From Desulforamulus ferrireducens (GTDB taxonomy: Bacteria; Bacillota; Desulfotomaculia; Desulfotomaculales; Desulfotomaculaceae), in NCBI RefSeq assembly GCF_002005145.1, contig NZ_CP019698.1, forward strand, positions 2,542,001 to 2,606,000: a stretch of 64,000 bases of DNA. The letters run 5' to 3'. The notes beneath the pieces were generated by a model that had not been told where the DNA came from, made no database searches, and was given only the letters and a program-made list of their open reading frames with translations. This document shows, one piece after another, positions 2,570-25,946 of the stretch. The stretch's first letter is position 1; each line of letters begins with the position of its first letter. A program made the translations under genes and the position numbers.

Positions 2570-3400
2570 CTATCGTTTGAGCTGAATAAGTTCCTCTAAT
2601 AAAGTGTCAGATACTGTAATTGTCCGAGCGTTAGCCTGGAAACCACGCTGGGTAACTATCATATCCACCATTTCTTGGGACAAATCGACATTGGACATTT
2701 CCAGGTAGCCGGAGGCAATAGTATTATTATTCACTGAGCTGGCTTCAACAAGGGTTGGATCTCCAGAGGCAGTGGTTTTGGTATATAAATTTCCACCTTC
2801 CTTCTTTAATCCTTCAGTATTGGCAAAGTTATACAAAACTATCTTATTTGCGTTTGCAAAGGTCAGTGTTGTACCATCAGTATAACTGCCAGATATAACG
2901 CCTTCCTCACTAATACTAATCTCTGCTACACGTTTTGGGGGTGTAGCTGCTATGTCGCTTATTTGAATATCATAGGTTGTTCCGGGTGCTCCCGCTACAA
3001 TTCCTTGAAGTCTTAAGCCCTGTGAATTTACTATATAACCCTGGTTATCTATGAAGAAGATACCATCTCTTGTATATTTTTCGCTACCAGCGGCGCCTCC
3101 TTCAGGCTTGACAGCGAAAAAACCATTCCCTTGAATTGCTAGGTCTAAGGTTCTGCCTGTGTTCTGTAAGGCACCCTGAGTGTAGTTATTATTTATGCTG
3201 CCAATTTTCATGCCAGTACCCACCTGGTTTTGTCCTATGGCTGGGTTGTTACTGTAATATTGGCTCAGGGAATCCATAAAGTTAACCCTTCCCGACTTAT
3301 ATCCCGTGGTATTAACATTAGAGATATTGTTACCCACCACGTCCATTCTTACCTGGTGGTTTTTTAGTCCAGAAATACCGGAGTAGAGCGATCTTAACAT
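2570..3400 (-). CDS. flgE: Short hook/rod protein of the FlgE/FlgF/FlgG family
   Basis: This family builds the hook and distal rod outside the cell. The 276-residue product has the N-terminal rod motif 'VVGNNISNVNTTGYKSGRVN' (about 22-41), a central core with 'LDLAIQGNGFFAV', and the C-terminal helix 'NVDLSQEMVDMIVTQRGFQA' common to FlgE/F/G. Its position directly after flgD and the TIGR02530 gene is where flgE sits. Its length, however, is that of FlgG (about 260), with little D2 insertion; many FlgE proteins exceed 400 residues. It may be a minimal hook protein. FlgG is the alternative name. The start is supported by GGAGG upstream. Confidence 0.85.
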   Translation of the reverse strand: MLRSLYSGISGLKNHQVRMDVVGNNISNVNTTGYKSGRVNFMDSLSQYYSNNPAIGQNQVGTGMKIGSINNNYTQGALQNTGRTLDLAIQGNGFFAVKPEGGAAGSEKYTRDGIFFIDNQGYIVNSQGLRLQGIVAGAPGTTYDIQISDIAATPPKRVAEISISEEGVISGSYTDGTTLTFANANKIVLYNFANTEGLKKEGGNLYTKTTASGDPTLVEASSVNNNTIASGYLEMSNVDLSQEMVDMIVTQRGFQANARTITVSDTLLEELIQLKR

Positions 3401-7483: not shown

Positions 7484-8218
7484 TTATTCCTCCTGGCCGT
7501 ATAACGCCTTGATTACTTCCTGCCAGCGGGTCTCCAAAGTAGCGTCCACCTGACCTTGGTCCGTCTCAAAACGACAGCCTCCTGGCTCTATACCATTATC
7601 TACCAATATGTTAAGCTCAACTTTACCTGGTAATCCTTGAAGTAATTGATTTTTTCCTTCCTCTACGATACCAAAATCAACCTGGTTGACGTAGACATTA
7701 ATAAAAGGACGGTTTTTAACCAGTTCGATACATTCCTTGGCAATTTCCATAATGGTACGGGGTTCAACTGCCAGTTGGGTCATCAGCACCCGTTCGGCAA
7801 TATCCACCGCCAAATCCACAATTTGGGGCTCCATCTGATCCAGGGTGCGTTTATAAACTTCCTGTGCCTGTCGCAGGACCTCCCTGGCCTGTTGGCGAAT
7901 GGTTTCTGCCTCGGCTTCCGCCGCATGAATACCTTCTTGCCAACCTGACTCTTTAGCCTGTTCCCTTAATTGTTGAGCCTCCATGCTTGCCTGTTCTTTT
8001 GCTTGTTGTAGTATCAGGCTAGCCTCTGACTTGGCCCTGGCTATCATTTCTTCCGCCTGCTGCTGGGCTAACTGGAGCAATTCCTCGGGGGAAATGGTTG
8101 GTTCCTCTTCCTCCACCTTTTCCACCTTCTCAGGCTCGAGGGCCAGTTCCCTTAAGGGTAACATCTGGTCAGCTTGATTTACAGGTGCACTCTTTATAAT
8201 CTTAAACAAGGATTGCAT
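7484..8218 (-). CDS. fliH: FliH, export ATPase regulator
   Basis: FliH binds FliI, holds it in check and brings it to the C-ring. Starting at ATG 8218, the product is about 244 residues: an acidic N-terminal part ('EKVEKVEEEEPTISPEEL'), a long Ala/Gln/Glu-rich helical region typical of FliH with GxxxG-like repeats ('EQAKESGWQEGIHAAEAEAE'), and a C-terminal domain related to V-ATPase subunit E ('VDLAVDIAERVLMTQLAVEP'). An upstream in-frame extension to 8275 exists but lies inside fliG; ATG 8218 gives a normal 17-nt overlap with fliG. Confidence 0.9.
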   Translation of the reverse strand: MQSLFKIIKSAPVNQADQMLPLRELALEPEKVEKVEEEEPTISPEELLQLAQQQAEEMIARAKSEASLILQQAKEQASMEAQQLREQAKESGWQEGIHAAEAEAETIRQQAREVLRQAQEVYKRTLDQMEPQIVDLAVDIAERVLMTQLAVEPRTIMEIAKECIELVKNRPFINVYVNQVDFGIVEEGKNQLLQGLPGKVELNILVDNGIEPGGCRFETDQGQVDATLETRWQEVIKALYGQEE

Positions 8219-9212
8219 CCTCCCCACCACGGGAAATGACAATCTCGCCGGCCTCTTCCAAACGTCTGATAACATTCACGATACGCTGCTGGGCCTCTTC
8301 CACATCCTTTAGTCTGACAGGACCCATGTATTCGATTTCTTCCTTCAGCATATCCGCTGCACGTTTGGACATATTTTTGTATATACGATTATTAACTTCC
8401 TGGTTGGCACCCTTCATAGCCAGAGCCAGATCCTTATTGTCCACCTCACGCAGTACCTTTTGGATGGAGATATCGTGAAGTTTCACCAAATCCTCAAAGA
8501 TAAACATCATCCTGCGGACTTCTTCACTAAGGTTAGGATCAGCCCGTTCCAGCTGTTCAAAGATGGCTTTTTCTGTGGCACGATCCACTTTATTGAGAAT
8601 GTTAACCAGACACTGTACTCCACCAACCACTGTTTCTTCATGCTGGGCAACAGAGGAAAGCTTTTTCTCCAGTACTTTCTCCACTTCCTTGGCCACATCC
8701 GGAGAAATGCGATCCAGGATAGCCACCCGGCGAGCCACTTCGCTTTGTATCTGGGGATCCAGTTCAGCTAAAATAACCGCGGCCTGATCCGGTTTTAGAT
8801 AAGACAAAACAAACGCAATGGTCTGTGGATGTTCTTCTCTGATAAAACTCAAAATGTGCTGGGGATCTGTCTTGCGCAAGGAACCAAAGGGAACCGACTG
8901 CATGGTAGCACTAATGCGTTCTAATATTTCTGAACCTTTCTCATACCCGTAGGTTTTCTCTAACAACTCTTTAGCGTAATCAACCCCGCCATTCAGCAAA
9001 TAATCCCTGGCTTGAATTAAATAGATAAACTCCTCAACAACCTGCTTTTGAATATCGTTAGGAACCTTATCAATTTCTGCAATGGCTGCGGTAAGACGTT
9101 CCACTTCTTCTTCAGTAAACTCTTGCCTTAATAATTTAGAGGCAATATCGGCTCCCAGGGATATCAATAATATGGCTGCTTTTTGTTCTCCGGTTAATTT
9201 ATCATAGTTCAT
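8202..9212 (-). CDS. fliG: FliG, flagellar motor switch protein
   Basis: FliG sits on the MS ring and transmits torque from the stator to the rotor. The 336-residue product shows all three parts: N-terminal 'LTGEQKAAILLISLGADIAS' (FliF-binding), the middle domain with the EHPQT motif in 'IREEHPQTIAFVLSYLKPDQ' (about 128-147), and the C-terminal domain with the charged torque helix region 'ISIQKVLREVDNKDLALAMK' and 'GPVRLKDVEEAQQRIVNVIR'. Length is normal. It lies 12 nt after fliF and overlaps fliH. Confidence 0.97.
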   Translation of the reverse strand: MNYDKLTGEQKAAILLISLGADIASKLLRQEFTEEEVERLTAAIAEIDKVPNDIQKQVVEEFIYLIQARDYLLNGGVDYAKELLEKTYGYEKGSEILERISATMQSVPFGSLRKTDPQHILSFIREEHPQTIAFVLSYLKPDQAAVILAELDPQIQSEVARRVAILDRISPDVAKEVEKVLEKKLSSVAQHEETVVGGVQCLVNILNKVDRATEKAIFEQLERADPNLSEEVRRMMFIFEDLVKLHDISIQKVLREVDNKDLALAMKGANQEVNNRIYKNMSKRAADMLKEEIEYMGPVRLKDVEEAQQRIVNVIRRLEEAGEIVISRGGEDAILV

Positions 9213-15684: not shown

Positions 15685-16080
15685 TTGGATAAAATTATTT
15701 TTCCCCAAGGATTGCCAGGTTTTGAAAACCTAAGTGAGTTTAGTATCTCTCCATTGCCCGAAACACCCTTTTATTATTTAGAATCCCTGGAAGATGAAAA
15801 TATTTGTTTTTTACTGGTAAACCCCTTTGATTTTTCTCGCTCTTATGAATTTGAAATACCGGCCCCGGTAGAAGAACTGCTGCAAATTAAAGAACTAAAT
15901 GAGGTAACTGTATTTACCATTGTCAATACCAGCCAGGGCCTGGAAAAGGCCACAGTGAATCTTCAAGCACCGATCATTATCAATGTTACCAATGGGAGGG
16001 GCATGCAGGTGGTGTTAAATGACCCCTCCTATAAAATCCGGGAACCTTTACATAGTCTAGTGCAGGGGGCGGTAAAATAA
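15685..16080 (+). CDS. fliW: FliW, flagellar assembly factor and CsrA antagonist
   Basis: FliW binds either flagellin or CsrA; when free of flagellin it removes CsrA from the hag transcript, so translation follows export. The 131-residue product has '[20 protein letters not shown]' (about 4-23), '[20 protein letters not shown]' and 'VINITNGRG-like' '[18 protein letters not shown]', all typical of FliW. The TTG start at 15685 follows AAGGAGG. Its stop overlaps the csrA start (TAATG), giving coupled production of antagonist and target. It is on the plus strand, divergent from fliS. Confidence 0.96.
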
Positions 16081-16319
16081 TGCTTATTCTTTCCAGGAAA
16101 AAGAACGAATCCATACGTATTGGCGACGATATCGTGATTACCATTGTGGATATTGCCGGTGAAAACATTAAATTAGGTATAGATGCCCCCAGACATATTC
16201 AGATTTTCCGCAGTGAATTAATAAAAGAAATACAAAGGGAAAATCAACAAGCTGCTACATCTAAAACTGACTTAAAAAACCTCTCTAAATTCATCCTCTC
16301 CCCCGAAAAAAACACCTAA
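16080..16319 (+). CDS. csrA: CsrA, translational regulator (copy 1)
   Basis: CsrA is a small dimeric RNA-binding protein that blocks ribosome access at GGA sites. The 79-residue product has the canonical start '[20 protein letters not shown]', then '[20 protein letters not shown]' and '[13 protein letters not shown]', with Leu4, Arg6 and the C-terminal Arg of the RNA-binding face present. The first codon overlaps the fliW stop. A second csrA lies at 24524-24697 next to the flagellin gene. Confidence 0.97.
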
Positions 16320-19926: not shown

Positions 19927-20802
19927 CTACCACAATATATAATCGTTGTCAGCTTGTTTCAGCAGCCACAGGACACTTTTCGCCTGCTGATTGGCCTGAA
20001 CAAACATGGCCATGGCCACCTGCTGGAGAATGCTGTACTTTACCAGTTCCATTATTTCTCTGGCCATGTCCGCGTCCCTGATCCGGGATTCAGCGGCAAT
20101 GAGGTTTTCTGCGGTGGTGTCCAGGTTATTAATGGTGTGCTCCAGGCGGTTGATGTAAGCACCTATCCTGCCCCTCTCGCTGGAAACGTCCGCCAGGGCC
20201 TGATCCACCACGGCCATGTTGTCATCATAGGAGTTAGTCAGTATATTAATGCCACTCAGGGCAAAATCAGGGTTTGCGCCGGACCCCAACAGGTCGGGAT
20301 TCATATTGCTAAATTGTATATACATTCCCTGCCCGGCATTGGCTCCCAACTGAAGCCAAAGCCCATTGCCCGTCCCGGCGTCACAGCTGCCGTCCAGTAG
20401 TTTCCTGGTGTTAAATTCCGTCCCGCTGACTATTCCTCCAATTCCCTCAATTAGCTGGTCAATTTCTTGCTGAATAGTCCTGCGGTCAGCATCGCTTAAT
20501 GTACCGTTGTGCCCCTGTATCACCAGTTCCCTGATGCGCTGAATCATAGCGTGGGTCTCGTTTAAAGCACCCTCGGCGGTTTGCAGCAAGGAAATACCAT
20601 CCTGAGCATTACGACTGGCCTGCTGCAAGCCCCTGATTTGGGCTCGCATCCTCTCGCTGATGGCCAGTCCGGCAGGATCGTCCGCAGCCCGGTTTATTCT
20701 GAGGCCCGAAGAAAGCCTTTCTATAGCTCTGGCGACCATGTTGCCGGCTCTGGTCATGTTTCTGTAAGCGGTCAGGGCGGCAATATTGTGGTTGATGATC
20801 AT
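19927..20802 (-). CDS. Second, short flagellin with an extra C-terminal tail
   Basis: Flagellins form the filament. The 291-residue product has the full D0/D1 N-terminus ('[20 protein letters not shown]', '[20 protein letters not shown]', '[20 protein letters not shown]') and C-terminal D1/D0 ('ESRIRDADMAREIMELVKYS'). Compared with the main flagellin (565 residues) it lacks nearly all of the outer domain. Instead of ending in 'QNILQLLR' it ends 'SVLWLLKQADNDYILW', about nine residues longer and with aromatic residues in a region normally buried in the filament core and bound by FliS. Its base composition looks more GC-rich than the surrounding DNA. A minor, junction or cell-surface flagellin is possible. 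Confidence 0.9.
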   Translation of the reverse strand: MIINHNIAALTAYRNMTRAGNMVARAIERLSSGLRINRAADDPAGLAISERMRAQIRGLQQASRNAQDGISLLQTAEGALNETHAMIQRIRELVIQGHNGTLSDADRRTIQQEIDQLIEGIGGIVSGTEFNTRKLLDGSCDAGTGNGLWLQLGANAGQGMYIQFSNMNPDLLGSGANPDFALSGINILTNSYDDNMAVVDQALADVSSERGRIGAYINRLEHTINNLDTTAENLIAAESRIRDADMAREIMELVKYSILQQVAMAMFVQANQQAKSVLWLLKQADNDYILW

Positions 20803-22704: not shown

Positions 22705-24402
22705 CTAACGGAGCAGTTGCAGTATGTTTTGGGGTTGCTGGTTGGCTTGAGCCAGCATGGCCTGAGCGGCTTGGGAGAGGATGTTCTGTTTGGTGAACTC
22801 CATCATTTCCTTGGCCATATCTACGTCGCGGATACGGGACTCAGCAGCGGTCAGGTTTTCACTGGAGGTTCCCAGGTTGTTGATGGTGTGTTCTAAGCGG
22901 TTTTGGAAAGCACCAAGGTTAGAGCGTTGGGCTGATACTTTTTCAATGGCATTGTTAATTACGGTAACAGCAGCAGCTGCACTTGTATGGGAAGTAACGT
23001 CAAGGGCTGCTTCTACCGCAGTGTTGTTGGTACCATTGGTTACGTTATATGTTGATGTAAAGTTGCCAGTACCTGCTTTACCAGATAATCCCAGAGCAGC
23101 AGCTCTCATGTCACCAATATTAATTGTCATACTTTGACCTTGGTTGGCACCAACCTGGAAGGTAGCAGTAAACTCTTGTTTTCTTCCTCCATCAGTAAAG
23201 GAGATACTATTACCATTGGTTCCAGCCTGCTTAGCTTCGATTACGAGATCATTAGCAGTGGTTCCTTGTTTAAGAGTAACATTAGTTAATTTGCCGGCAG
23301 TTTGGGCTATTAAATCGGCAACAATATCAGCTCCACTTTTGGCGTTGTGGATATCTACACCGATACCGATTCCTTCGTAATTGCCTTTACTTCCGTCATA
23401 GAATTCAATTACTTGGTTATCAATGGTAAAGCCTTTACCAACTAAGGCTGCAGCATCTGCTGCATTAGCAATGCTTGCAAAGCTGATATTTCCAGTTTTT
23501 GCTTTGGCACCGGCAACCATATTACCTGGGGTTACTACACCTTCGGTACCAACAGCAGCATCAGAATATGTGGTTGCTGCAATTGTTCCGGCTAAACCAT
23601 CAGCAGCACTACCTGCAATTGCGGAAATTGTCAACTGGTCGCCAGTTGCAGTTACCTGGTAATCACTGCCAATACCAAGTTTAGTTAAAGCACTATTTAG
23701 TGCATTAGCCAGTGCAGTAGCAGCAGCATTGGCATCAGCAAATGTACCGGCTTTTGTTCCAAGAGTAATTGTTTGACCATCGGCGCCAACAGTAGTAGTA
23801 TCCACAGATTTATCTAGAGTTACTGTAATTGTTTTACCACCGATATTATACGTTGCAGTTCCAGCAACATCATCAATATCTGCAATGGTATCAGTAACTT
23901 TAACTTGGGATAAACTGTCCGCTGTACCACCGGTTAGTGTACCTGCTGTAATCAAGTTTGTTGCTGTTACGTTAGCTGAACCATCTCCACCTTTTAATAA
24001 CTTCTGGGTGTTGAACTCGGTGGTGTTACCAATACGGTTAATTTCCGAGGTTAGCTGGTTAATTTCCTTCTGGATTTCATCACGGTCAACGGTTACGTTG
24101 GTGTCGTTGGCTGCTTGGACAGCCAGTTCACGCATACGTTGTAGGATGGCGTGGGTTTCGTTTAAACCACCTTCAGCGGTTTGAATCATGGAAATACCAT
24201 CTTGGGCGTTACGGGCAGCTTGGTCCAGACCACGGATTTGAGCGCGCATTTTTTCGGAGATAGCCAGACCAGCAGCATCGTCACCGGCACGGTTAATACG
24301 GAGACCTGAGGATAGTTTCTCTAAGGATTTTTGAGTGTTAGTATTGTTAAAGCTTAACTGACGATATGTGTTTAACGCAGCAATATTATGGTTAATTCTC
24401 AT
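22705..24402 (-). CDS. hag: Main flagellin (Hag/FliC)
   Basis: This is the main filament subunit. The 565-residue product has the conserved N-terminal D0/D1 ('[20 protein letters not shown]', '[20 protein letters not shown]', '[20 protein letters not shown]') and C-terminal D1/D0 ('[20 protein letters not shown]', ending '[11 protein letters not shown]'). About 300 residues in the middle form an Ala/Thr/Gly/Asp-rich outer domain with little conservation, making it about twice the size of minimal flagellins. Its mRNA leader carries an unusual hairpin between the ribosome site and the ATG (see 24409-24446). csrA2 lies 121 nt upstream in the same direction, and fliB is downstream. Confidence 0.97.
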
Positions 24403-24408
24403 TTATGC

Positions 24409-24446
24409 CCCTGTTACCTGCTCCGATAACAGGGTTACACCTCCTT
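24409..24446 (-). promoter_or_regulatory. hag leader: hairpin between Shine-Dalgarno and ATG, with CsrA-type sites
   Basis: On the minus strand a strong AAGGAGG (24446-24440) lies 37 nt from the hag ATG. Between them CCCTGTTA and TAACAGGG form a perfect 8-bp hairpin (24434-24409) with a 10-nt loop TCGGAGCAGG containing GGA. If the hairpin folds, the effective spacing from AAGGAGG to ATG drops to 11 nt. The ribosome site reads ACAAGGAGGT, an exact match to the CsrA consensus ACANGGANGT. A second weak ribosome site, AGGGG, lies in the 3' arm. This looks like a CsrA-controlled leader; see findings. Confidence 0.7.
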
Positions 24447-24523
24447 GTTAATTTAAAATTACGGCAGTTTGCCGCTGGGGAGAGGTTGACTTCCGTTCCA
24501 ACTCTCCCGCTTTTAGATCACTA

Positions 24524-24697
24524 CTATGCCCCTTGGGCTTGTCCCGGCATTTCCAGCAATTCCGAACGCACAATATCCACGCCATGGGGGGCCTGGATAC
24601 CGATTTTGACGGTGTTGCCGATTACCTCCAGGACCACTACTTTGATTTCTTTGTTAATAACTACCGATTGACTTTCTTTGCGTGTAAGTACCAGCAT
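24524..24697 (-). CDS. csrA: CsrA, translational regulator (copy 2)
   Basis: This second CsrA has 57 residues: 'MLVLTRKESQSVVINKEIKV', 'VVLEVIGNTVKIGIQAPHGV' and 'DIVRSELLEMPGQAQGA'. The RNA-binding residues (Leu4, Arg6 and the Arg in 'VRSE') are present. It has a shorter tail than copy 1. ATG at 24697 follows AAAGGAG; the reading frame continues upstream to 24829 but that part is untranslated leader. It lies immediately upstream of hag in the same direction, so regulator and target probably share a transcript. No fliW adjoins it. Confidence 0.95.
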   Translation of the reverse strand: MLVLTRKESQSVVINKEIKVVVLEVIGNTVKIGIQAPHGVDIVRSELLEMPGQAQGA

Positions 24698-24700
24698 GCT

Positions 24701-24720
24701 AATCACACTCCTTTGTGATT
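24701..24720 (-). promoter_or_regulatory. csrA2 ribosome site presented in a GGA hairpin loop
   Basis: On the minus strand AATCAC-AAAGGAGT-GTGATT forms a 6-bp stem whose 8-nt loop holds the AAAGGAG ribosome site of csrA2. GGA in a hairpin loop is the classic CsrA target, so csrA2 is likely to repress its own translation. Confidence 0.6.
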
Positions 24721-24748
24721 CTGTTGACCACCCTCTTTCGTGAACACC

Positions 24749-24764
24749 CTGCCTTCCCTGGCAG
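24749..24764 (-). promoter_or_regulatory. Second GGA-loop hairpin in the csrA2 leader
   Basis: On the minus strand CTGCC-AGGGAA-GGCAG forms a 5-bp stem with a 6-nt loop containing GGA, about 50 nt upstream of the csrA2 start. Paired GGA hairpins at this distance are the usual way one CsrA dimer bridges a leader. Confidence 0.5.
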
Positions 24765-24849
24765 TTGACCAACCAGCAGAATTGCTGCATTTTGATGTTA
24801 ACGTTGGTGTGCCTTTGTGTTTGCTTCATTTTGAAGCACCTAATTATAT

Positions 24850-24876
24850 AGTCGGTGGGTGGGGGGCTGGACTTTA
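24850..24876 (-). promoter_or_regulatory. SigD-type promoter of csrA2-hag
   Basis: The minus strand reads TAAA (24876-24873), 16 nt, ACCGACT (24856-24850), followed by ATATAAT. This is close to the SigD pattern TAAA-N15-GCCGATAA. A SigA-like TATAAT overlaps but has no matching -35. It would place the transcript start about 145 nt upstream of csrA2, leaving a long leader. Confidence 0.5.
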
Positions 24877-25020
24877 GGGTTTGTCTAAAATATTTTGCTA
24901 ACTATTATTGGCGGGAAAGATGGGGTATGCTAGCACTGTGCTGCAATTTGTGGCCAGAGCAAAGCCTTTGACTGCATTACCAGCAACCTGCGGTATAATA
25001 TTTTGTGTGGAAAGCAATAA

Positions 25021-25066
25021 ACTCCCTCCGGCAGCTTCGCTGCCACCTCCCTCGTCGAGGGAGGTT
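25021..25066. repeat. Two-hairpin GC-rich intergenic repeat, copy A
   Basis: CTCCCTCCGGCAGC-TTC-GCTGCC followed by ACCTCCCTC-GTCG-AGGGAGGT makes two adjacent hairpins. The same layout recurs in inverted orientation at 49395-49442 with altered but still paired stem bases. The copies share about three quarters of their bases. No gene lies in it. Confidence 0.6.
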
Positions 25067-25109
25067 TTGGTGCTACCGTTTGCTGGGAGGGCAATTTAAG
25101 GAGTTCCTG

Positions 25110-25223
25110 GTGGTTGGTTTGCCCTATGTTGAGCTGATTAAACTATGGCGGGCCAAGGGAATGTCCCCGGAGAAGGTAAAGGAAATATGGGGCAGAATTT
25201 TGGAAATAAAGTCCATTTTATAG
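25110..25223 (+). CDS. Small 37-residue helical protein
   Basis: I do not recognise this protein. GTG at 25110 follows AAGGAG by 6 nt, and the 37-residue product 'VVGLPYVELIKLWRAKGMSP' plus 'EKVKEIWGRILEIKSIL' looks like two short helices with a typical 'S-P-E-K-V' turn. The stop codon lies inside a strong terminator, so it has both a ribosome site and a transcript end. A TATAAT at 24994 with a TTGACT 20 nt upstream could be its promoter, though the spacer is long. It lies divergent from csrA2-hag. Confidence 0.55.
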   Translation: MVGLPYVELIKLWRAKGMSPEKVKEIWGRILEIKSIL

Positions 25224-25264: not shown

Positions 25265-25594
25265 TTAGCCTTTGGGTTTGCTCTGGCAGATATCCTGTAA
25301 GAAAAATTGTGCCAGTCGAAAGCCTTTGTGCAATCCTTCGCGGAAGGTAGCCGTCATGGTCAGGGCATTTAGGTTATTGATGACATCCTCGTATCGGGAT
25401 ATTAACTCACTTATGGGACCGTCGTGGGTGGCTGCCAATTCAGCTAACTGCCGGCGGAGGCTCTCATAGGTTTGTTCCAATTGCTGGTATTTATTTTGCT
25501 CTTCTTGGTTGAGCAGGAATTTGGATTGTTCTTCGTCGAAGGTAATTTCTTCTATGGGGTTAGGAAGTAAATAATCAAGAACAGGTATTTTCAT
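25265..25594 (-). CDS. Unrecognised 109-residue helical protein
   Basis: The product is soluble and helical: 'PIEEITFDEEQSKFLLNQEE', 'QQLEQTYESLRRQLAELAAT' and a C-terminal 'FREGLHKGFRLAQFFLQDIC'. The pattern F-x-x-G-x-x-x-GFRLA near the end resembles small Firmicutes proteins of unknown function that share a GFRLG-type ending. It lies just downstream of a flagellin relic on the same strand. No function can be named. Confidence 0.55.
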   Translation of the reverse strand: MKIPVLDYLLPNPIEEITFDEEQSKFLLNQEEQNKYQQLEQTYESLRRQLAELAATHDGPISELISRYEDVINNLNALTMTATFREGLHKGFRLAQFFLQDICQSKPKG

Positions 25595-25613: not shown

Positions 25614-25946
25614 CTACAACTGCCAAATCAAAAATTCGGCAGTGAGACCTGGCTGACCTCCTTTATATCCGGGTATACCTACTTGGAAAGTAGCCGAGAA
25701 ACCAGTGCCAGCACCAGCGCCAGCGGCACCAGTTACGCCACCATCTAAAGTAATAGTTTCATTTAAACCGGTAGCTCCTGTAATATCACCGGTAAAGGCT
25801 ACAGTAAGGGCTGATGGCGCTGCGTCACCAGTAGCATTATCAATTAGGTTTTGAATAGCGGTAGCATCATATGTGTCACCGTCTACAAGTGATATTGTCA
25901 ATGTATCACCGGCCCAAACTGCTCCTGCTGCTGTATCTTCAGTGAA
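25614..25946 (-). pseudogene. Relic of a flagellin outer domain
   Basis: The minus strand from TTC 25946 to the stop at 25614 reads as the variable part of a flagellin: 'DTLTISLVDGDTYDATAIQN', 'LIDNATGDAAPSALTVAFTG', then 'GFSATFQVGIPGYKGGQPGL'. 'ATFQVG' is also where the main flagellin re-enters its conserved domain ('[14 protein letters not shown]'). The conserved N- and C-terminal D0/D1 parts are missing and a stop codon stands just upstream. It is either a decayed flagellin gene or a silent cassette. Confidence 0.7.

Follow-up and report, generated by a model that had tools for sequence, protein, structure and literature searches.

Does a csrA gene that stands directly in front of a flagellin gene control its own translation and, if so, through which CsrA protein? 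The question is raised by a 64,000-nt stretch of DNA (the window), in which the short gene csrA2 precedes hag on the minus strand and an ordinary csrA, csrA1, adjoins fliW at a distance. A preliminary description of the sequence had proposed that two GGA hairpins in the csrA2 leader make csrA2 repress itself. The reading we favor, with a probability of roughly one half, is that the leader is a two-site CsrA target, that CsrA2 is its likely binder and that csrA2 is thereby autorepressed on the SigD-driven mRNA of flagellin. The features of the locus are collected in Table 1, in which G006 is a congener of the genome of the window (G000) and G048 is Desulforadius tongensis DSM 29799, from another family.

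Table 1. Features of the csrA2-hag locus, in window coordinates.
Feature	Position	Strand	Support or remarks
fliW and ordinary csrA1 (79 aa, N55 present), rival repressor	15685..16319	+	
hag, 565-aa flagellin, second gene of the unit	22705..24402	-	
AAGGAGG of the hag leader, whose end is 37 nt from the hag start, followed by a 10-bp hairpin (loop GGAGCA)	24409..24446	-	
Probable CsrA site in the hag leader, a hairpin with loop AACGGAAG	24478..24508	-	G006: loop identical, stem different
csrA2, 57-aa CsrA without C-terminal extension	24524..24697	-	PF02599, 2.5e-20
Hairpin 2, AAUCACA-AAGGAG-UGUGAUU, containing the csrA2 Shine-Dalgarno	24701..24720	-	7 bp, hexaloop; GGA 24711-24709
Hairpin 1, CUGCC-AGGGAA-GGCAG, upstream CsrA-type site	24749..24764	-	5 bp, hexaloop; GGA 24757-24755
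Conserved block CACCAACGUUAACA of the leader, predicted to pair with ACG-N6-GGUG at 24741-24729	24796..24809	-	Invariant in three species
SigD-like promoter TAAA-N16-ACCGACTA of csrA2-hag	24849..24876	-	Motif; aligned copies in G006 and G048
xre remnant (divergent regulator)	25005..25223	+	tblastn, 58% over residues 95-137 of 143
ORF-X of the csrA2-hag cassette	25265..25594	-	43% over 112 aa to G006 ORF-X; DUF6809 match sub-threshold

Both hairpins were found on the minus strand within 24698-24770, where the preliminary description had placed them. Their stems are perfect and both loops are ANGGAN hexaloops, the loop that a review gives for high-affinity CsrA/RsmE sites (PMC7652899). A recount of hairpin 2, previously given as 6 bp and an 8-nt loop, yields 7 bp and the hexaloop AAGGAG. 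The gap between the hairpins is 28 nt, in agreement with the earlier figure of about 30 nt, and the two GGA triplets are 46 nt apart. The csrA2 start codon is the ATG at 24697-24695 (-). A longer frame from the ATG at 24829 (101 aa), which would make the hairpins intragenic, was rejected because the extension is not conserved in G006 or G048, where the open frame spans only 61 aa. The minimum-energy fold of the leader (RNAfold) includes both hairpins, and the whole leader has a z of -2.54, with 3 of 200 shuffles folding as well. A search of Rfam with the leader matched no family.

Hairpins of this kind are rare in the genome. In 464 kb of G000 (the window and 20 stretches of 20 kb, both strands), 20 NNGGAN hexaloop hairpins have at least five Watson-Crick pairs, seven of them with A as the first loop base, including both from csrA2. 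The only one with at least seven pairs is the csrA2 ribosome-site hairpin. We also scanned the 100-nt leaders of 342 control gene starts, called heuristically as ORFs of at least 100 aa with a Shine-Dalgarno, for which csrA2 is itself too short. At least one GGA-loop hairpin of 5 or more bp was present in 15 of these, two in none, and one at the ribosome site in four, with the caveat for hairpin 2 that a GGA inside any ribosome site is expected anyway. The other csrA leaders from the parsed loci (n = 89) gave the same picture, with no such hairpin in 85, one in four and two in none.

A short stand-alone csrA directly upstream of hag, hereafter the csrA-hag cassette, was found in six genomes from four families (G000, G006, G048, G061, G270 and G294). 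The strict hairpin count for their csrA leaders is two in G000 and G006 and none in the other four. That only two of six units carry strong hairpins speaks against the CsrA-target reading, as does the fact that the leaders of G061, G270 and G294 are GGA-rich without a 5-bp hairpin.

Close relatives of csrA2 are few. Among 113 genomes of the class, three match at E 1e-18 and only G006 and G048 are close; a scan of genome contigs returned 31 loci, of which only Desulforadius tongensis was close, and the csrA matches in the phage and plasmid record collections (6 and 95 records) were all distant. Because of this scarcity, covariation of the csrA2 leader rests on two or three sequences. Hairpin 1 of G006 reads CCACA-AAGGAU-UGUGG, with three of five pairs changed on both sides and a loop that is still ANGGAN, and its minimum-energy fold has six pairs around AGGA. 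The chance of five canonical pairs when 6 of the 10 stem bases are replaced at random is 0.0075. The three doubly changed pairs were counted directly from the sequences, outside RNAalifold; the MAFFT alignment of G000 and G006 is one base off at hairpin 1, and RNAalifold, in that other register, has only two. Hairpin 2 of G006, AAUCAC-AAGGGAUG-GUGAUU, has the same stem as in G000 and hence no covariation. In G048, site 1 is ACAAGGGAUU without a stem and hairpin 2 is absent; ACAARGGAUU at site 1 is common to G006 and G048.

As in the E. coli csrA leader, high-quality candidate CsrA sites are present, one of them over the ribosome site. Of the proposed self-repression, the target half is supported by the two ANGGAN hexaloops, the position of one of them on the ribosome site and the retention of the loops in G006, whereas the choice of CsrA2 over CsrA1 as the repressor is not. 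The csrA2 leader looks like a true CsrA target, and control of csrA2 by CsrA is likely.

The best conserved block of the leader in G000, G006 and G048 is CACCAACGUUAACA. Its predicted long-range helix with ACG-N6-GGUG appears when G000 and G006 are folded individually and again in the consensus of these two sequences. This block allows a different explanation, which we consider improbable, namely that the hairpins are not CsrA sites but part of a structured RNA in which the helix of CACCAACGU with ACG-N6-GGUG tunes initiation, the GGA loops being by-products of the ribosome site. The invariance of the block in three species agrees with this explanation, as do the whole-leader z values of G000 (-2.5) and G006 (-2.8) and the overlap of the GGUG partner with the ribosome site in G048. 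However, hairpin 1 is at some distance from the ribosome site and has retained its ARGGA loop despite a rewritten stem, both loops fit ANGGAN, and the whole leader of G048 folds no better than shuffles (z -0.74). The helix is only a suggestion from the folding models, because it shows no covariation beyond one GU/AU change and the G048 leader folds otherwise, its minimum-energy model alone not forming the helix. It is very unlikely that the block serves the divergent XRE regulator as a DNA operator, with the hairpins being incidental. G006 and G048 do have an intact xre divergent to csrA2, but in G000 it is reduced to a 43-residue remnant and the block is nonetheless unchanged.

The protein itself bears on which CsrA acts here. 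CsrA2 belongs to PF02599 (72.6 bits against a cut-off of 27). It keeps L4, R6 and the RNA-binding R44, and has P51 and Q55 in place of the FliW-contact residues V51 and N55 (positions from PMC7829508). CsrA1, which is fliW-coupled and 79 aa long, has I51 and N55, whereas CsrA2 ends at residue 57. FliW binding by Campylobacter jejuni CsrA is reported to be reduced by loss of the 20 C-terminal residues or by changes at N55 or V51, and not by loss of 15 residues (PMC7829508). We compared 67 distinct CsrAs from the parsed loci, six from short cassette genes and 61 others. R44 is present in all 67, and N55 in 56 of the 61 others as compared to one of the six cassette proteins (G048); in the five others without N55, the N is shifted by one residue towards the N-terminus or the tail is a variant. 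PDB 5dmb, a CsrA with a C-terminal extension that was the basis of FliW modelling (PMC7829508), aligns to residues 2-70 of CsrA1 and merely to residues 2-48 of CsrA2. A FliW-regulated CsrA is expected to have the extension, N55 and fliW directly upstream; CsrA2 has none of these, and the only FliW of the genome adjoins csrA1. CsrA2 appears to be FliW-blind, given the missing extension, the missing N55 and the short 5dmb alignment.

Single fliW genes were found in G000, G006, G061 and G294, two overlapping pieces with stops in G048 and no match in G270, so that two of the six cassette hosts are without an intact fliW. The resident fliW of G048 (L080, about 3200-3380, (-)) is split across two frames near a run of T, which may reflect either a genuine lesion or a sequencing error.

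By analogy with glgC and hag, we infer a mechanism in which a CsrA dimer would dock on the upstream AGGGAA hexaloop and bridge to the AAGGAG hexaloop with the csrA2 ribosome site, which would block translation of csrA2. With CsrA2 as the likely binder this would be autorepression, and the regulator would share its SigD-driven mRNA with its flagellin target. Because CsrA2 has no tail for FliW to grip, its activity would be set by feedback on its own leader and not by the FliW checkpoint. Each cell would hold a fixed pool of CsrA2; additional csrA2-hag transcripts beyond this pool would escape repression, and hag output would rise when SigD transcripts exceed the pool.

CsrA1 could equally be the repressor, the two proteins being inseparable as binders by sequence. 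If the csrA2 leader is bound by CsrA1 and released by FliW, csrA2 would be a client of the FliW-CsrA1 checkpoint, turned on together with flagellin and not self-repressed. We regard this as possible but rather doubtful. Within the genus, the ordinary FliW-coupled CsrA is CsrA1, which keeps N55, a CsrA match is present in 9 of 10 genomes of the family, and the csrA2 leader shares its two-hairpin plan with ordinary hag leaders, which are targets of the protein class of CsrA1. A counter-case is G270, which has the csrA-hag unit, no FliW match and a single csrA match, so that no FliW checkpoint can be involved in the action of its short CsrA. This counter-case is weakened by the G270 leader, which is without strong hairpins.

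The preliminary description also placed csrA2 and hag on one transcript. The gene order was confirmed, csrA2 lying directly upstream of hag with a gap of 121 nt, in which the sole terminator-like feature is a six-pair stem with a poor T tail (24475-24461). A SigD-like motif precedes hag in 24 of 37 ordinary hag leaders as compared to none of the six cassette hag leaders. Before csrA, the strict pattern occurs in three of the six cassette genes versus one of 89 others; csrA2 of G000 is missed, its -10 differing by a base. The apparent SigD promoter described earlier is a SigD-like motif whose TAAAGT and ACCGA do not vary among three species, whereas the loose pattern alone shows no clear excess over chance (7 found in the window, 3.8 expected). 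The absence of the motif before all cassette hag genes and the merely weak terminator-like stem in the gap make the proposed common transcript probable, and csrA2 and hag probably form a single transcription unit.

In five of the six cassette hag leaders a strong AAGGAGG/AGGAGG-type site is located some 37-100 nt upstream of the hag start codon, and the interval contains hairpins or a short frame (window 24409-24446 (-), L014 about 1735-1797, L015, L128 and L137). In G048 this site precedes a 14-codon ATG frame that ends with TAAATG at hag. The arrangement is similar to that of iraD, which CsrA represses via a coupled upstream ORF (PMC5574718). A 31-codon upstream frame ending at the hag start in G061, G270 and G294 is left unclaimed; its sole start codon, a GTG, overlaps the Shine-Dalgarno.

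The csrA-hag gap varies among the six cassettes (121 nt in G000, 74 in G006, 108 in G048, 139 in G061, 149 in G270 and 137 in G294), and all six CsrAs are without the C-terminal extension for FliW binding. Further short csrA-hag units may be present in the phylum, where 280 of 398 genomes have a csrA match; context was parsed for the best 29 new loci, 27 of which have a csrA row. The units of G000, G006 and G048 are accompanied by ORF-X and a divergent xre, intact in the latter two. The G061 unit lies in a prophage, flanked by a phage amidase and by tail genes. An integrase follows beyond the amidase, and the major tail protein and tape measure are located further out. The G294 unit adjoins a truncated amidase of the same family. 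In the window the unit is part of a flagellar cluster, with no phage genes seen alongside. In G048 the cassette is flanked by two near-identical copies of a membrane-protein gene (L043:1904-2809 and 7804-8700), an arrangement that would fit insertion or duplication of the cassette together with these genes. Overall, the csrA-hag gene pair looks like a transferable cassette.

A scan of 101 viral loci in IMG/VR identified three with flagellin, and in two of these csrA lies just upstream (L159:2714-3870 on a 130-kb contig and L161:2615-4239 on a 173-kb contig); the hag leader of L159 contains CAC-AUGGAU-GUG. The phrog_2 marker does not serve to call these contigs viral, as it also matches 11 of 14 control genomes. 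On IMG/VR contigs L082, L083 and L085, the csrA leaders contain several GGA-loop hairpins, five in L082, with one over the ribosome site. Self-controlled csrA may thus be common on phages, to judge from these leaders.

Ordinary hag leaders of the phylum follow a two-hairpin plan, an ANGGAN hairpin and then AUUC-ANGGAG-GAAU over the ribosome site, and this target covaries strongly. In an alignment of 24 such leaders, a subset of our choosing, it was 88.9% paired and 25 cells were doubly changed, as compared to 6.5 in shuffles; each of the five measures gave 0 of 500 shuffles. The strict count for the 37 ordinary leaders is 24 with the first hairpin, 14 with the ribosome-site hairpin and 10 with both. 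The csrA2 leader has this plan with a wider spacing (46 nt). When the hag-leader covariance model (R1) was run against the window, the csrA2 leader scored 8.6 bits (E 4, rank 10 of 24), which is not a hag-type match, and the model thus failed to detect the csrA2 leader independently. As far as the sequences go, the likeness of the csrA2 and hag leaders is one of plan, not of sequence.

The CsrA-site model of hag gave 58, 45.5 and 43.6 bits for the resident hag leaders of the three hosts with both flagellins, the first two of which were included in the training set and the third (G061) left out. Among the cassette hag leaders, G006 scored 31 bits and the other cassette-locus matches at most 13.2. 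Two Flagellin_N matches were found in each of G000, G006, G048 and G061 and one in each of G270 and G294, leaving out one lower-scoring FlgL-like match per genome; three of the six hosts have no second canonical hag. Judging by these counts, some hosts rely mainly or solely on the flagellin of the cassette. The second flagellin of G000 (291 aa, window 19927-20802 (-)) has a leader without a GGA hairpin by scan. Between FlaG and ORF-X, a flagellin-like fragment without a Pfam match was recognized by eye (window 25614-25901 (-)); it is perhaps a relic of a resident hag that the cassette has displaced.

The ordinary hag leaders contain a further element upstream of the first CsrA hairpin, mostly 65-100 nt before the hag start. 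It is a hairpin with the invariant core GCGGCCGAC (for example L080:2629-2661 (-), L077:4428-4460 (-) and L049:7260-7292 (+)). It is present in 18 of 37 ordinary leaders (25 with a looser pattern), in none of the six cassette hag leaders and nowhere in 800 kb of own-genome strand. Its stem covaries over the 18 copies (score 0.525 versus 0.170 in shuffles, 0 of 500). No Rfam family matched at six loci tested, and our literature search found nothing on it. The hairpin may be the element bound by FliW, since binding of FliW to the hag leader, with no reason given for it, is reported (PMC6529632).

Tentatively, the csrA-hag pair could be a flagellin-swap cassette of Firmicutes that is moved by phages and acts post-transcriptionally, its FliW-blind, self-checked CsrA silencing the resident hag, in whose leader strong CsrA sites are retained, and letting the cassette flagellin pass. 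The higher scores of resident over cassette hag leaders on the CsrA-site model and the three hosts without a second canonical hag agree with this suggestion, for which TldR-FliC prophages would be the counterpart. In descriptions of Firmicutes, flagellin homeostasis depends on a FliW-CsrA-Hag switch. A CsrA that moves with its flagellin, is out of reach of FliW and seems to be self-limiting through its own leader would constitute a second, FliW-free route of flagellin control, and would account for the import of a new filament by a prophage or island without upsetting the host checkpoint.

Self-control of csrA is already known. E. coli CsrA blocks its own translation from four leader sites (Yakhnin 2011, cited in PMC7652899), one of them over the Shine-Dalgarno as in csrA2. 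The csrA2 leader differs in having two sites, in being on a SigD-type unit with flagellin and in the presence of a second, FliW-coupled csrA. We noticed no report of csrA self-control in a Firmicute in the portions of the open-access literature covered, and the searches returned no description of a short or FliW-independent CsrA beside flagellin. The hag (fliC) leaders of Bacillus subtilis and Clostridioides difficile resemble the csrA2 leader in combining an upstream GGA (BS1) with a ribosome-site GGA (BS2), and both pairs are suited to bridging by one dimer (PMC8523840). BS1 and BS2 precede hag, whereas the csrA2 pair precedes csrA, is more widely spaced (46 nt) and is unmatched by the hag covariance model. 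The cassette shares with the FliW-CsrA-Hag partner switch a CsrA family protein adjoining flagellin; the switch needs the C-terminal extension and N55, both missing from CsrA2.

The closest parallel is the csrA-tldR-fliC loci published in 2026, in which csrA is linked to fliC and CsrA binds a stem-loop in the fliC 5' UTR, the TldR-FliC unit being prophage-borne and replacing or remodelling flagellin (PMC13418256). Linkage of csrA to a flagellin gene and carriage by prophages are thus already on record in that account. By ORF size alone, no TldR candidate lies between flgL and hag in the window or in the 3.1-kb loci of G270 and G294. What appears to be new in the csrA-hag cassette is that there is no sign of TldR, that three of the units are accompanied by xre, that the CsrA is short and that CsrA-type hairpins are located in the leader of csrA itself.
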